Shown here one piece after another: positions 7,888 through 12,661 of a DNA stretch of 64,000 bases. The stretch is from Sanyastnella coralliicola (GTDB lineage Bacteria > Bacteroidota > Bacteroidia > Flavobacteriales_D > Sanyastnellaceae), in contig NZ_CP132543.1 of the NCBI RefSeq assembly GCF_030845195.1, forward strand, positions 2,807,501-2,871,500, written 5' to 3'. Position numbers and translations under genes: made by a program. Position 1 is the first letter of the stretch, and each line of letters opens with the position of its first letter. The notes under the pieces were generated by a model. It worked only from the letters and a program-made list of their open reading frames with translations. It ran no database searches and was not told the DNA's origin.

Positions 7888-8379
7888 ATGCGCCTAGCCT
7901 ACCTCATATTGCTTGTATTTGTGCTTGGTTCGTGTGCCAGTTTTCCGCCACAGAATCATCAAGCGCAACCTGAAGTGCTGCTCCATTATGACTGGTGGAA
8001 CAATGCTATTAAGCAACCCGTAGCTCGAGTGCAGCTATGGAATACCACCCCTGAACTCGTTACGGGCGCATTGATTGATGTTTGCGCATGGGACGCCAAA
8101 GGAAACGAGCTCACATCTTTCCGGACGTACCGTAAGATGGAGCTCGTTGCAGGAGATAAAAAACGTTTCCGTTTATGGCTACCCGGACATCATGCCGACC
8201 GGGTAGAAGTTTCTTTGGTCGAGTTCTATAGCTTAGAATCGGAGGGTCAATCCAACCAAGTAGTTTCTTCCGGCTTGTGGATAGAAGAACTCTTCGTGGA
8301 TTCTGCTACCTCCGTCTATGAATCCGTAAGTGTACCCGTTGTTGACATACGTCTCGTCCAAGACGTTATTGACCATTAG
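7888..8379 (+). CDS. hypothetical lipoprotein with a 3' end running antisense into the TonB receptor gene
   Basis: A 163-residue protein with a lipoprotein signal (MRLAYLILLVFVLGSC, acylated Cys at 16). The body up to about residue 115 looks like a small beta-sandwich (QLWNTTPELVTGALIDVCAWDAKG, then RFRLWLPGHHADRVEVSLVEFYS) resembling an FxLYD-like domain. The last 49 codons (8233-8379) overlap, in the opposite direction, the final codons of the TonB-dependent receptor, whose C-terminal end is well defined. The ancestral stop may therefore have been lost and the tail gained by read-through. The function is unknown; the location is probably the periplasmic side of a membrane. Confidence 0.65.
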   Translation: MRLAYLILLVFVLGSCASFPPQNHQAQPEVLLHYDWWNNAIKQPVARVQLWNTTPELVTGALIDVCAWDAKGNELTSFRTYRKMELVAGDKKRFRLWLPGHHADRVEVSLVEFYSLESEGQSNQVVSSGLWIEELFVDSATSVYESVSVPVVDIRLVQDVIDH

Positions 8380-10920
8380 GTTCACAGATAGCTGACGCAT
8401 TCCCCAATCACGCACGTAAAACGCCATGCGGAAATCATTTACCAAGTATGAAGGAATCACACGCTCGCTATTAGAAGTGTTATCAAGGTACTGCTCACTC
8501 ACATACTTCGTCTGCCATGCAGCTTCCGCGCTAAGACGGCCACGCTGAAGGAAGGTGTAAATCACCTGTGCCGAAGCGATCAAGTCTGGAGAGAAGGAAA
8601 TATCAGTCTCTCCGAGTTCTGTCTCTTGGAAGGCATTCACATCGTAATCGAAGATCAATTCAGTGAAATCTTGAATCTTGTTCTGGCTGTAAGTTGCATT
8701 TGCTACAAGCAATAAACGACGGAATGGACGGTATCCAAATTCTGCCTCCACCCCTCTTCTGTAGCTCTCTGCTACGTTCGTGCGCACAGGCGTACCCACA
8801 TCATTCAGATCTCCTGTCAATACGAGCTGATCAGTGTAGTTCATATTATAGAAGTTCAACAAGAAGTTGTAGCGTGGCATCATGCGGCGGTAACCGAATT
8901 CAAGGTCTCCCATTTGCTCTGGACGTGGAGCTTCACCATCAAGTGCATCGATGTAATCGTTACGCGTTGGTTCGCGATTTCCGATAGCATACGAAGCGTA
9001 TACCATGTTATTACGGTTCACATCGAACGAGAAACCAACCTTCGGATTGAAGAAGTTCAGTGTATCTGTTACGTCAATAGCAATCAAATCAGCATCGATT
9101 CCTGACGCCTCATACGTCACTTGACGCACCTGAAGATCTGCGTAAACATTCATGCGACGGTTCAAGAGGTAATTCACCTTCAAGTACGAGTTGAAGTCTG
9201 TCTTGAAACCGTTGTTCAAGTAGTAGAAATCTTGGTACTCAGAGTTGTTCGGGTGCTCCATCCAAATAATCTCACCGAAGTGGTCTCCATCGTATGCGTT
9301 CCATGCTCCACCAAGTACTGCGTTCAATTGATCGTTATCAAAACGACGTGTGAAGTCAAGTGACCAAGTGGCACCGTAGAAATCATTCTCCAGCCAACGA
9401 CGACGAATCACGTCACTCGTTGAAATCTGAGCGATCGAGTTTAGCAAAGGATTTCCGCTCCCATCAGTAATTGGGTCACCGTTTTGATCCGTCACTACCG
9501 TGTGGCTGATTTCCACTTCATCCCAATCATAGTTGTTATTGAAAGTCGTGTTCGTCGGGTTTCCATCCAGATCTTCTGCGTCTGCAAATTGCTGCACAGC
9601 ATTCAAGATGATGTTGTCAATGTTGTAGATGCTCAAATCATCGCTAGCGCGGAATTGCTCAAAGTAACCACGACCATAAGTGTAGTGACCTGCTGCACGG
9701 AAAACCAACCCGCTACCGAAATCATAAGCGAAGTGCAGCTGGTAGTGGTCTTGCGCATAGTTGTCTACCTCATTCTCGTAGGTGTAATAGTTCGATTGAC
9801 GACCTAGGTTCACCATATCATCAATCTGCTGTTCTGAGTAAAAGTTATTGGCACCCCACTCTCTAATTTCAGCTTCACTTCCATCCAAGGCTACTTCAGG
9901 AACACCCCACCATGCTTGGTAAGTTTCTTCACGTCCACCGAACACCAATCCTTTGATGCTTACGCGTCCTTTATTGTACTGTCCGTTCAAGAAGTAGCTC
10001 TTCAAGTCACTTGATGCCCGGTCAATGTATCCGTCAGAAGTGATCTGTGACAGACGCCCTTCAATGGCAAAACCATTCGGCATCAACCCGCTTCCAAATT
10101 CTACCGTGTGGCGGAAGGTGTTGAATGACCCGACGCTGTTGGTAATCTCAGCAAAGGCTTGCGGTGCCATACGGTCAGTACGAAGCCCGATAGAACCACC
10201 GAAAGCACCTGCTCCGTTGGTTGAAGAACCCACACCACGCTGAATACTCACATTGTCAATGGATGAAGAGAAGTCTGGAAGGTTCACCCAGAACACCCCT
10301 TGTGACTCCGGATCATTGTATGGAATCCCGTTGATGGTCACATTGATTCGGCTCTGATCGCTACCGCGGATACGCAATCCGGTGTATCCAATTCCTGCAC
10401 CTGCATCAGACGTTGTCACGATCGATGGTGTAAAGCGAAGGAGGATTGGTAGATCTTGTCCGTTATTCAACTTATCCAGTTGAGCCGCACTTACGTCTGA
10501 AGAGGCAAATACCCCATTCTCTGGAGCTGACCCCGTCACTGCGATAGAGGCTGTAGACAGATTAATGATCTTCTCTTCCATGACAGGCAAGACAAGAGGA
10601 TAGTCAGTAATGTCTTGTTGCGAAGCCATTGTGGCATCCACCGACACTACTTGTCCGGCTTTCACCGTCGCCTTCTTTTGCATTGGCTGGTACCCCACCA
10701 ACTTGAACTCAAGTGTATACTCACCCGGATCCACTTGGATTTGGTAATACCCGTCTAAGTCAGTGGTTGCACCTAGCTCAGTGCCCATTACATAGACCGT
10801 AGCAAATGGTAAAGATTCATTTGAATTTCCATCGACCAAGCGACCCTTGATCGTTCCTTTTTGCGCGAGCGCCGCGCTCGAGAATAGTAGGACTAATAGT
10901 CCCAGTAATACTCGTCTCAT
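8233..10920 (-). CDS. TonB-dependent outer membrane receptor, TPP-riboswitch controlled (thiamine uptake)
   Basis: An 895-residue outer membrane receptor. The order is: signal peptide (MRRVLLGLLVLLFSSAALAQ), a carboxypeptidase-regulatory-like beta domain (GTIKGRLVDGNSNESLPFATVYV, about residues 22-105), a plug domain (about 155-260, with LRIRGSDQSRINVTINGIPYND) and a 22-strand barrel ending in the typical aromatic GLTLRF. Such receptors import scarce ligands using TonB and the proton motive force. Its leader holds a TPP riboswitch, so the ligand is most likely thiamine or a thiamine precursor, as predicted for THI-element-controlled receptors in Bacteroidota. No inner-membrane thiamine transporter (PnuT) or thiamine gene is adjacent. 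Confidence 0.93.
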   Translation of the reverse strand: MRRVLLGLLVLLFSSAALAQKGTIKGRLVDGNSNESLPFATVYVMGTELGATTDLDGYYQIQVDPGEYTLEFKLVGYQPMQKKATVKAGQVVSVDATMASQQDITDYPLVLPVMEEKIINLSTASIAVTGSAPENGVFASSDVSAAQLDKLNNGQDLPILLRFTPSIVTTSDAGAGIGYTGLRIRGSDQSRINVTINGIPYNDPESQGVFWVNLPDFSSSIDNVSIQRGVGSSTNGAGAFGGSIGLRTDRMAPQAFAEITNSVGSFNTFRHTVEFGSGLMPNGFAIEGRLSQITSDGYIDRASSDLKSYFLNGQYNKGRVSIKGLVFGGREETYQAWWGVPEVALDGSEAEIREWGANNFYSEQQIDDMVNLGRQSNYYTYENEVDNYAQDHYQLHFAYDFGSGLVFRAAGHYTYGRGYFEQFRASDDLSIYNIDNIILNAVQQFADAEDLDGNPTNTTFNNNYDWDEVEISHTVVTDQNGDPITDGSGNPLLNSIAQISTSDVIRRRWLENDFYGATWSLDFTRRFDNDQLNAVLGGAWNAYDGDHFGEIIWMEHPNNSEYQDFYYLNNGFKTDFNSYLKVNYLLNRRMNVYADLQVRQVTYEASGIDADLIAIDVTDTLNFFNPKVGFSFDVNRNNMVYASYAIGNREPTRNDYIDALDGEAPRPEQMGDLEFGYRRMMPRYNFLLNFYNMNYTDQLVLTGDLNDVGTPVRTNVAESYRRGVEAEFGYRPFRRLLLVANATYSQNKIQDFTELIFDYDVNAFQETELGETDISFSPDLIASAQVIYTFLQRGRLSAEAAWQTKYVSEQYLDNTSNSERVIPSYLVNDFRMAFYVRDWGMRQLSVNLMVNNVLDETYVNNGYTYGFIDGGSRIHEEFFYPQAGRNYLVGLTLRF

Positions 10921-10969: not shown

Positions 10970-10974
10970 GTCAA

Positions 10975-11072
10975 TCATTAAACCCGCTCCCTTCCCAGCA
11001 TAACCCGGGCAGGTTCGAAGGGTATAATCTCAGCCATCCACAACGTTTTGTTTTAGGCACCCCTGTTTGAGA
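10975..11072 (-). ncRNA. TPP (thiamine pyrophosphate) riboswitch
   Basis: On the minus strand the conserved THI-box blocks appear in order: AGGGGTGCC, then GGCTGAGA, ACCCTTCGAACCTG, GGGTTATGC, and GAAGGGAG. These are the pyrimidine-sensing (GGCTGAGA) and diphosphate-sensing (GAACCTG...ATGC) segments of the thiM/thiC-type aptamer. It sits just after a Bacteroidota-type promoter and ends about 55 bases before the start of the TonB-dependent receptor, so it would lower receptor synthesis when TPP is plentiful. The edges are approximate. Confidence 0.95.
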
Positions 11073-11077
11073 CGGGG

Positions 11078-11106
11078 CAAAGGTATTTAATCCCTTTAGG
11101 AATCAA
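11078..11106 (-). promoter_or_regulatory. promoter of the riboswitch-receptor transcript (TTG-N18-TACCTTTG)
   Basis: TACCTTTG (11078-11085) is a perfect TAnnTTTG -7 element of Bacteroidota, with TTG (11104-11106) 18 bases upstream. The predicted start near 11071 lies a few bases before the riboswitch, which supports both calls. Confidence 0.8.
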
Positions 11107-11235
11107 TAACTGATAAACGATAATCTATAACTCTCCATCTTGGAATCGATAAACAATAAACGATAGTCTATAACTCAGAACCAATAACTAACAACTAAAT
11201 ACTAATGACCAACAACTAATAGCTAGAGACTAACG
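11101..11235. repeat. degenerate 7-base tandem repeat tract (left of the four-helix gene)
   Basis: The tract can be cut into consecutive 7-base words: AACCAAT AACTAAC, then AACTAAA TACTAAT GACCAAC AACTAAT, and so on, preceded by AACGATA/ATCTATA words. The words vary at two or three positions but keep the phase. It contains the word GATAAACGATAATCTATAAC (11112-11131), which recurs inverted on the other side of the next gene. Confidence 0.8.
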
Positions 11236-11353
11236 GCCTATGATTTCATTGTAGATTCTTGATTGCACTGAACTTATTCTTCATCTATGAACTTTAGAAC
11301 CACACCCATAAAGTAGATGCGGTGGGTGTTGGATTTCCACATACTATTGTTGC
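11236..11353. other. intergenic segment with no recognisable gene
   Basis: Between the repeat tract and the four-helix gene is a plain AT-rich stretch. I see no ORF, RNA fold or clear TAnnTTTG promoter in it. It presumably carries the promoter of the four-helix gene. Confidence 0.5.
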
Positions 11354-11740
11354 ATGCCTTACAAATATCATCACATGAAAGTGTGGCATGACTCAGCTGA
11401 TTTGGTCAAAAAATGTTATGAATTGATAGCGGAATCAGCTGATCCACAAGACTTCTATTTCTTCAATCAAATGAAGCGCGCGTCTACTTCAATTTGTTTC
11501 AATCTTGCTGAAGGATCTGGGGCGGGAAGTGACAAGCTCATGCGGCGTCATGTGAATATTGCGATTGGCTCTGCTTTTGAACTGGCTAATCAGCTAGAAA
11601 TTGGCATGAAGATCAATCATTGGTCCCCCGAACAAACAAGACCTCTTCTATATGCTTTAGACGAGGTCATCAGACAACTCTTTGGCCTCAAAAGACACCT
11701 TTCTAGGTCAATCGATAACGACGCTAATGGTGGAAAATAG
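11354..11740 (+). CDS. four-helix bundle protein (23S rRNA intervening-sequence protein family)
   Basis: A 128-residue helical protein of the S23/IVP family. Visible markers are KVWHDSADLVKKCYELI in helix 1, QMKRASTSICFNLAEGSG in helix 2, and a C-terminal LDEVIRQLFGLKRHL helix. Founding members are encoded by intervening sequences in 23S rRNA of Leptospira and Coxiella; in Bacteroidota such genes are often solitary, as here (no rRNA nearby). A relative, Avd, works with diversity-generating reverse transcriptases, but none is present. The gene stands alone between two repeat tracts that share an inverted word, hinting at a mobile or domesticated cassette. The molecular role is unknown. Confidence 0.88.
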   Translation: MPYKYHHMKVWHDSADLVKKCYELIAESADPQDFYFFNQMKRASTSICFNLAEGSGAGSDKLMRRHVNIAIGSAFELANQLEIGMKINHWSPEQTRPLLYALDEVIRQLFGLKRHLSRSIDNDANGGK

Positions 11741-11868
11741 TTGTTGGTTATGGGTTGTTGGTTATGGGTTGTTGGTTGTTGGTTGTTGGTTGTTGGTTCT
11801 AGATTATCGTTTATCGATTTTCAATTCCAACCGGGCGGTTATAGATTATCGTTTATCGATTTTCGATT
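11741..11868. repeat. degenerate 7-base tandem repeats and inverted word (right of the four-helix gene)
   Basis: Begins right at the stop codon of the four-helix gene with GGTTGTT/GGTTATG heptads (about eight words), then two copies of AGATTATCGTTTATCGATTTT-type sequence (first at about 11810, second at about 11842). These are the inverse of the GATAAACGATAATCT word at 11112-11126. The cysQ stop lies at the end of the tract. Confidence 0.8.
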
Positions 11869-12661
11869 ACTCCGCGAGAAATGACGGATTCACAAGCCTC
11901 CCATCCACATAGTCCAAATCCTCTCCACCCTCCATCTGGACAATCTTCTTTCCGACCGATCTGAGGATGGCGTCTCCTGCTGCGGTGTCCCAGATCATGC
12001 AGGGAGAGAAGCGGGGGTAGAGGTGCGCTTCGCCGAGGGCGAGTTTGCAGAATTTGAGTGAGCTGCCTGCGCGAATGACTTGAAGGTCTGGATGCTTTTG
12101 GCGGATTTCTTTGAGGTAATTGAGGGTGTTCTCTTTCAGGTGAGATCGACTCACTACAGCGGTGTGTGGGATATCTAATGTCGGTATCTCCGTGGTGAAA
12201 GAAGTTTCCGAAGGGAAGGTCTCTCGGCAATCTGATTGGGTGAAGCCAAGAGATGCTAATCCGAGATATGCCTTGTTGACCCTTGGGTGAACGATGACAC
12301 CTAGGATAGGTGTTCCCTGGTGGATGAGGCCTATGTTGATGGTGAAGTCTGGACGACCGGCGATAAATTCTTTCGTGCCATCTAAAGGATCGACTACCCA
12401 GAAACGTTCATGTGATGAGCGGGCATACATATCTGCTCGGGAACCTTCTTCGGAGACGATGAGTAGTTCTGATTTTTTGAGGGTGGCTGTAATCAGATTG
12501 TCGGCAGCTATATCTGCTTCGGTGACTGGAGAGGCGTCGTCTTTGTATTCCGTTTTGAAGCCGCGCTCTTGAAACTCCACAAGGACCGGTGCTACTTTGG
12601 AAGCCGCTTCATAGGCAAGCTTCAGTAGTTCTAGATCACTCATGTTTGTTTGTTTCTCCAT
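11867..12661 (-). CDS. cysQ: 3'(2'),5'-bisphosphate nucleotidase CysQ
   Basis: A 264-residue member of the inositol monophosphatase fold that removes the 3' phosphate of PAP/PAPS, protecting sulfate assimilation and other PAP-sensitive enzymes. The metal-binding motif WVVDPLDGTKEFI (about residues 88-100), the EEGS motif and the C-terminal WDTAAGDAIL motif are all intact. An upstream EAD element (VTEADIAAD) fits the family. It sits 14 bases downstream of rsgA on the same strand. The gap between them holds an exact copy of the 13-mer TTCCGCGCTAGCG, the only copy outside a gene. Confidence 0.95.
   Translation of the reverse strand: MEKQTNMSDLELLKLAYEAASKVAPVLVEFQERGFKTEYKDDASPVTEADIAADNLITATLKKSELLIVSEEGSRADMYARSSHERFWVVDPLDGTKEFIAGRPDFTINIGLIHQGTPILGVIVHPRVNKAYLGLASLGFTQSDCRETFPSETSFTTEIPTLDIPHTAVVSRSHLKENTLNYLKEIRQKHPDLQVIRAGSSLKFCKLALGEAHLYPRFSPCMIWDTAAGDAILRSVGKKIVQMEGGEDLDYVDGRLVNPSFLAE

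Follow-up and report, generated by a model that had tools for sequence, protein, structure and literature searches.

A solitary four-helix-bundle gene between inverted heptanucleotide arrays in Sanyastnella coralliicola: a probable minimal mobile element

The 64,000-nucleotide stretch analysed here (the window) covers positions 2,807,501-2,871,500 of the single-contig genome of Sanyastnella coralliicola (4,097,636 bases; G000), and the feature under study is a single gene of the 23S-rRNA-intervening-sequence-protein family (IVP; PF05635, a four-helix bundle, alias S23p) that lies between inverted arrays of short words, mostly 7-mers. This feature is, in our view, probably a single instance of a minimal mobile element composed of these arrays and the one IVP gene. 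The original prediction of a cassette with inverted ends stood in so far as the ends belong to the gene, in all eight copies detected in G000 and in numerous further genomes, and in so far as Nostoc plasmids show a joint insertion of arms and gene, the combined unit measuring about 420-505 nt and being missing from the same gene pair in other plasmids. The particular word that was put forward as the repeat at the ends is, on the other hand, not a shared terminal repeat, as each copy has its own words; these are shared within a group of related cassettes and different between unrelated copies.

The coordinates of the locus are given in Table 1. A 7-nt periodicity was observed in both arms of the window copy, with a period-7 tract at 11144-11225 in the left one. 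Self-comparison aligned the two arms with 75% complementarity (gapped score 64) around a loop of 505 nt, which bears out the claim that the gene stands between inverted heptad tracts, and the ungapped pair 11140-11232/11738-11830 spans 93 nt at 74%. The word GATAAACGATAATCT occurs a single time in the window, at 11112, and two copies of its reverse complement lie at 11801 and 11843, close to the places predicted (about 11810 and 11842). It had also been noticed that the stop codon touches the right tract, and the TAG at 11738-11740 indeed lies inside the right arm. The RNA fold of 11091-11871 reached -268.6 kcal/mol, compared with -186.1 for shuffled sequences (sd 5.1, n = 20). The IVP is the only ORF of the unit, and no transposase domain was found in it with Pfam. 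In addition, a TPP riboswitch-like element was observed at 10971-11074 on the minus strand (RF00059, E 4e-7, 42.9 bits, below the gathering score of 54.3), directly upstream of the TonB-dependent receptor, which suggests thiamine control of that receptor; its promoter would then lie near or within the left arm.

Table 1. Features of the window copy and of a gene-less hairpin in a Nostoc plasmid
Feature	Position	Strand	Basis
Left arm, inverted heptad array (GATAAAC, GATAATC, AACTAAC, ACCAATA type words)	11098..11232	+	self-comparison
Inner spacer / IVP gene 5' region	11233..11353	+	lies from arm to start codon
IVP gene, 128 aa, four-helix-bundle family PF05635/TIGR02436	11354..11740	+	Pfam and NCBIfam, solved relatives, dN/dS
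Right arm, heptad array (GTTGTTG, GGTTATG, TTATCGA words), complementary to left arm	11738..11871	+	self-comparison
CysQ-like phosphatase, neighbour; stop codon overlaps outer end of right arm	11867..12661	-	
TonB-dependent receptor, neighbour	8233..10920	-	
182-nt gene-less heptad hairpin inside IVP gene	L229:1204-1385, Nostoc N6 plasmid pNPM1		

A search of the genome for other copies of the gene, with inspection of their flanks, found eight IVP genes in all, each of them with inverted flanks. Flanks were scored by the best local alignment of the 350-nt left flank against the reverse complement of the right flank, and the eight genes reached 30, 25, 18, 37, 32, 34, 64 and 21. Because some right arms overlap the ORF, so that cassettes were missed by this original score, the last 45 nt of the ORF were added on the right in a revised score, for loci and controls alike, with a threshold of 18. 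The window gene scored 64 in the original and 65 in the revised form, and control ORFs from 464 kb of the same genome scored at least 20 in 3/323 and 3/330 cases, respectively. With the revised score at 18 or above, inverted flanks were detected at 8/8 IVP genes and 3/330 controls of the own genome (Fisher 4e-14), and at 22/34 loci and 0/241 controls of the order (Fisher 3e-24), for which 34 of 59 matches outside G000 and its sister species G001 were scored and controls came from eight genomes. The phylum set, 70 places of a longer score-sorted list (40 taken by hand, 30 automatically) that is biased to high profile scores, gave 40/70 loci and 7/272 controls (Fisher 7e-26), and cyanobacterial plasmids gave 10/12 and 2/46 (Fisher 8e-8), the 12 excluding L216-L218, L227, L229 and L294 (same site or near-identical) as well as L232 (a truncated remnant). 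Controls matched from the same 8-kb stretches reached an original score of at least 18 in 15/195 cases, compared with 18/40 loci (p 6e-8). As 8/10 matches of G001 repeat G000 sites, this genome was kept out of the pooled table; 7/10 of its own matches scored at least 18. Rows for L033 (contig edge), L197 (17 bases) and L249 (run of N) were dropped. Below the threshold were 30/70 loci of the phylum, 12/34 of the order and two of the 12 cyanobacterial loci.

Of the 80 loci that reached the threshold, 64 had 7, 14 or 21 as their best arm period, counting IVP arms only, with 6/8 in the own genome, 17/22 in the order, 31/40 in the phylum and 10/10 in cyanobacterial plasmids. Exceptions seen by eye were one copy of genome G002 with 8-nt words and one of G017 with words of about 21-22 nt. 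The direct score exceeded the inverted score at L021, L022, L028, L075 and L076, and at L220 heptads are present and, by eye, not inverted. The words vary between the loci of G000, with CCGGCGT, GGCTTAA, GGTGGAC, GCGGATC, GTGGTTC, ATAAACG and others. The IVP family was found in 116/148 genomes of the phylum and not in the other 32/148, with 0 to 16 matches per genome.

Heptanucleotide short tandem repeats of cyanobacteria are known as STRR, and the window copy shares with them the tandem 7-nt words in intergenic DNA. The original prediction held that repeats occurring freely without such genes would speak against it, and they do so occur: a census of 464 kb of G000 (20 sampled stretches and the window) counted 82 period-7 tracts, which are thus not particular to the gene. 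Eleven of these lie in the window, three being the arms of the window copy. Other periods in the same 464 kb amounted to 10 tracts of period 6, four of period 8 and one of period 9, and no tract of period 5, 10, 11 or 13 was found there. The tracts are biased to the 3' ends of genes, as a tract lies within 20 nt of the stop in 36/329 control ORFs and within 20 nt of the start in 7/329; a tract within 100 nt of the stop was seen at 7/8 IVP genes and 45/329 controls of G000. Across genomes, no period-7 tract was found in 35 usable stretches (669 kb) from 24 IVP-less genomes, the one count being a run of N, while IVP-bearing genomes except G000 gave 20 tracts in nine stretches of 7/27 genomes (39 usable stretches, 736 kb). 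IVP presence and tract presence are associated by genome (Fisher 0.008), and other periods differ little between the two groups; in 20/27 IVP-bearing genomes the sampled stretches hold no free tract. Two regions of G000 are rich in these words: L042:52-527 (G000:C1:1100052-1100527) contains several heptad word classes arranged as a higher-order repeat whose steps measure roughly 80-115 bp, and L039 (G000:C1:500001-520000) contains 16 clustered heptad tracts and several IVP-less heptad hairpins over about 12 kb.

Filled and empty sites were compared in Nostoc plasmids, using six of the 30 records of one match list and eight of the 11 of another. At site 3, the two genes are 3 nt apart in five plasmids, and three others carry a cassette insert (420, 420 and 602 nt), in which the upstream stop codon is followed at once by heptads, then by the IVP gene, the inverted heptads and the downstream start. 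The spacer at site 2 is 0-3 nt in seven plasmids, and one plasmid, pNsp_c of Nostoc ATCC 53789, holds an insertion of 505 nt with GGGAAAA words. Site 1 occurs in three forms: a spacer of 51-52 nt (two plasmids), a cassette-bearing spacer of 489-496 nt with GGGAACA words (two plasmids) and, in L222 and L223, spacers of 260 nt (inverted score 23) and 340 nt (inverted score 18) that hold IVP-less heptad hairpins. The left junction of L222 is nearly the same as that of the IVP cassette of other plasmids. Since the empty sites 2 and 3 contain no heptads, the arms must have arrived together with the gene. The cassette type of site 3, with GTCAGGA/GTCAGAA words, has different neighbouring genes in Nostoc, in Aulosira and in Trichormus/Scytonema, and the homology of these relatives runs from arm to arm and ends at the arms; the Trichormus and Scytonema copies have matching flanks and were counted as one site. 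Two near-identical Calothrix plasmid copies belong to a multi-gene block that both plasmids share. Inspection by eye showed a repeat of TTCTA at site 3 and nothing consistent as a target-site repeat at sites 1 and 2 or at the 182-nt hairpin of Table 1. The left heptads of cyanobacterial copies mostly start within about 10 nt past the stop codon of an upstream gene in the same direction, the exceptions being L214 and L219, the latter with its upstream gene on the other strand.

Three IVP cassettes of cyanobacterial plasmids (L211, L213 and L295) were observed inside CRISPR operons with heptads on both sides, in the orders cas6-IVP-cas4 (type I-D, twice) and cas10-IVP-cmr3 (type III-B); L295 scored 17, below the threshold. 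The IVP family is named in a figure legend of a paper on CRISPR-linked proteins (PMC10910872). The IVP genes in these operons may be passengers.

Hairpins of heptads were also found without an IVP gene. In the 602-nt insert at site 3 (strain N6), the IVP gene of a 420-nt cassette is interrupted by a further insert of 182 nt, which strain C052 lacks. This insert is a gene-less hairpin with 38-nt arms, 84% complementary and built of AGAATTC/AGGAGTC type words, and its family was listed at 103 places, distributed over 43 plasmid records from filamentous cyanobacteria that include Nostoc and Tolypothrix; most of the matches listed start and end close to the hairpin ends. The position of this insert inside an IVP gene, along with its family, indicates that gene-less heptad hairpins are also inserted as units. 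Five IVP-less heptad hairpins, with loops of 73-224 nt, were counted in 464 kb of G000.

The window protein matched PF05635 with E 1.6e-24 and 86.6 bits (cut-off 33.8) and TIGR02436 with 81.8 bits (cut-off 24). Among solved structures, 2gsc (XCC0516) was matched with E 4e-10 by sequence and 1e-35 by family profile, 2rld was matched by profile, and 4DWL was absent from the matches listed in both IVP searches. XCC0516 forms a pentamer of four-helix bundles (PMC4990558), and PF05635 is described as similar to Avd of diversity-generating retroelements in a text that compares 2GSC with 4DWL (PMC10053308). The dN/dS ratio was 0.14 between the window IVP and its G001 ortholog and 0.17 when pooled over seven ungapped G000/G001 pairs, two of which have an in-frame stop in G001; such stops were seen in 3/10 G001 IVP matches. 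Judged from these substitution ratios, the IVP protein is constrained by purifying selection. No catalytic domain was found in it with Pfam. As for genome partners, 30 genomes were searched, the own one included: no reverse-transcriptase match was found in 11 of the 19 IVP-bearing genomes and no Y1 transposase match in seven of them, while 4/11 IVP-less genomes have a Y1 match. A strict need for either enzyme encoded in the genome is rejected on the IVP-bearing genomes that lack a match to it. The sole reverse-transcriptase match of G000 lies at 3.43 Mb, and the window at 2.81-2.87 Mb.

All eight IVP sites of G000 are occupied in G001, a sister species of the same genus, and the insertion in the window is therefore older than the G000/G001 split. 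A scan of genome contigs with the protein located one locus, in the sister MAG ALOHA_ZT_13, with 91% identity of the IVP proteins. A fixed syntenic place in relatives, which the original prediction had set against a mobile cassette, was found only in part: the site is the same in G001, at about 90% identity, yet at 28 other CysQ-like loci, L079-L106 from relatives, tblastn detected no IVP within about 1.5 kb on each side of CysQ, and so the place of the window copy is not fixed. A TonB gene lies upstream of and divergent to CysQ in 8/28 of these loci. The search for an empty site in sister genomes, which had likewise been proposed, found none for the window copy. CysQ is reversed in G000 and G001 relative to relatives, with the cassette at the junction, and a clean empty site is lacking for this reason. 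In G002, a weak IVP-less inverted heptad pair follows CysQ (inverted score 18, direct 13).

Among close relatives, filled and empty versions of one site were observed for the Nostoc plasmid cassettes and for the L063 cassette of G001; the corresponding G000 site lacks this cassette and contains another heptad tract. The G000/G001 difference could be a loss rather than a gain. For the second extra G001 copy, L059, the corresponding place in G000 is rearranged, with the flanks 19.5 kb apart. At L008/L066, the same site in G000 and G001, the flanks are about 96% identical and the IVP proteins only 51%, and this suggests, as far as the sequences tell, that the IVP gene was replaced in place. In seven of the eight G000 cassettes (L001-L004 and L006-L008), the outer arm end lies near or over the stop codon of a neighbour, at -52 to +16 nt, the neighbours being mechanical ORFs. 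This placement may reflect targeting, or the survival of harmless insertions.

Among the other explanations, the one that deserves most attention holds that the heptad hairpins came first, as a separate repeat system that is mobile by itself or arises by slippage and inverted duplication, and that the IVP genes are passengers which were trapped in their loops or inserted there. The hairpins without IVP are what it would predict, namely the five in G000, the weak pair in G002, those of L222 and L223, and the 182-nt family with its 103 places, and because this gene-less family is mobile, the explanation is slightly strengthened. The stem of the Nostoc tRNA-Leu intron consists of paired 7-nt motifs too, according to the part of the literature drawn on here (PMC4476775). 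However, the empty Nostoc sites 2 and 3, with their spacers of 0-3 nt, contain no heptads and indicate that the arms came with the gene; insertion of IVP genes into existing heptad hairpins is rejected as the main route by these heptad-free sites. The 669 kb of IVP-less genomes hold no period-7 tract, and purifying selection on the IVP is not needed by a mere passenger, so that we regard the hairpin-first order of events as rather unlikely.

It is less probable still, and in our view improbable, that the paired flanks form a conserved regulatory stem, with arms that would protect or control the IVP mRNA, of a host IVP gene with a fixed role, for instance in ribosome or RNA handling. The pooled dN/dS of 0.17, the orthologous placement in two sister species and the very stable stem predicted would all agree with such a role, but the same-site presence and absence in Nostoc and in G000/G001, the range of 0 to 16 matches per genome with 32/148 genomes lacking the family, the in-frame stops in 3/10 G001 matches and words that are not conserved speak against it. 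Chance flanking of a solitary gene by abundant intergenic heptad tracts could draw on the 82 tracts in 464 kb and on their strong bias to gene 3' ends; it is rejected by the control counts, as inverted flanks were found in 3/330 control ORFs and 8/8 IVP genes of the same genome, and inverted-flanked IVP genes occur also in G021, G024 and G027, where no free tract lies in the sampled stretches. We give this coincidence hardly any credence. A location in rRNA is likewise rejected for 20 loci, the window copy included, as Rfam at the gathering score returned no rRNA match in any of them, and the neighbours of the window copy are protein genes.

The mobile cassette of arms and gene, which remains our preferred reading, has its nearest known kind in the intervening sequences (IVS) of 23S rRNA. 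In Coxiella, Leptospira and others, these carry the IVP (S23p) gene in a loop, with terminal inverted repeats as the stem; that of Coxiella measures 428 nt, and the same source, as far as excerpted, describes a sporadic distribution and a decaying ORF, applies the term selfish, and treats their mobility as hypotheses (PMC4990558). At the window copy, too, an IVP ORF lies within terminal inverted repeats and a stem is predicted. The cassettes differ from the IVS in sitting between protein genes, with no Rfam rRNA match in the 20 loci, in arms that are mostly 7-nt tandem arrays with an own word per copy, and in numbering one to 16 IVP matches per positive genome. Published heptad repeats, which include GGGAATC repeats of Xanthomonas and Nostoc (PMC4692102) and TAACTGA repeats of Beggiatoaceae, with heptads also in Cyanobacteria, Bacteroidetes and gammaproteobacteria (PMC4679880), are likewise intergenic arrays of 7-nt words, whereas the excerpts of both reports give the tracts without a carrier gene; the second (PMC4679880) itself states that it sees no evident mechanism for horizontal transmission. 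The IVP and the Avd protein of diversity-generating retroelements are similar four-helix-bundle proteins, as excerpted from PMC10053308. In contrast to these retroelements, no reverse transcriptase lies beside the cassette, and 11/19 IVP-bearing genomes have no match to one. Whereas the ends of ordinary transposons are fixed, the words of the cassettes vary between loci. This variation weighs against the mobile-element reading, and so do the IVP in which Pfam found no catalytic domain, the genomes with IVP but no match to a reverse transcriptase or to a Y1 transposase, the inconsistent target-site repeats, the loci that score below the threshold or have direct arrays, the 15/195 matched controls that score at least 18, the 20/27 IVP-bearing genomes whose sampled stretches hold no free tract, and the possible loss behind the G000/G001 difference.

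In REP/RAYT systems, a single gene lies between inverted short repeats and many gene-less copies accompany it; the RAYT is a Y1 nuclease and the REP sequences are fixed. The cassettes resemble them in having one gene with inverted repeat flanks along with gene-less copies, and differ in words that vary and in an IVP in which no catalytic domain was found. No report linking IVP genes to heptad arrays was found in the open-access literature, the scope of the search lying outside subscription journals, and there is a fair chance that the cassettes merit a class of their own. In Flavobacterium columnare, four-helix-bundle genes between guanylate kinase and nicotinate adenylyltransferase are listed as phage elements in the part of the paper drawn on (PMC5524665), and these may be insertions of the same kind.

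We propose that the arms could fold on each other, as RNA or as single-stranded DNA, into a long stem, and that the IVP protein would bind this stem or its transcript and might recruit a polymerase or nuclease encoded elsewhere, which would then insert the unit beside a stop codon. The free heptad tracts would be solo ends or gene-less derivatives, comparable to REP palindromes in their relation to RAYT genes, and the intervening sequence of 23S rRNA would represent such an element placed in an rRNA helix. The wider proposal, in which these cassettes form a widespread and so far unrecognised class of minimal mobile elements with an Avd-like gene in a hairpin, a stem made of a self-complementary series of 7-nt words and rebuilt in the course of the spread of lineages, and a targeting of stop codons, and in which the heptads of Bacteroidota and Cyanobacteria are its solo or gene-less copies and the rRNA intervening sequences its in-rRNA version, is one that we hold to be evenly balanced between right and wrong.

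Taken in this way, the cassettes would join two orphan phenomena, the heptanucleotide tandem repeats and the free-standing four-helix-bundle genes that were found in 116/148 Bacteroidota genomes, and they would offer a general form for the rRNA intervening sequence. They also call for caution, in that IVP genes within operons, such as those of CRISPR systems, are not to be read as parts of the operon. These claims are directly testable in the Nostoc strains that have filled and empty sites.
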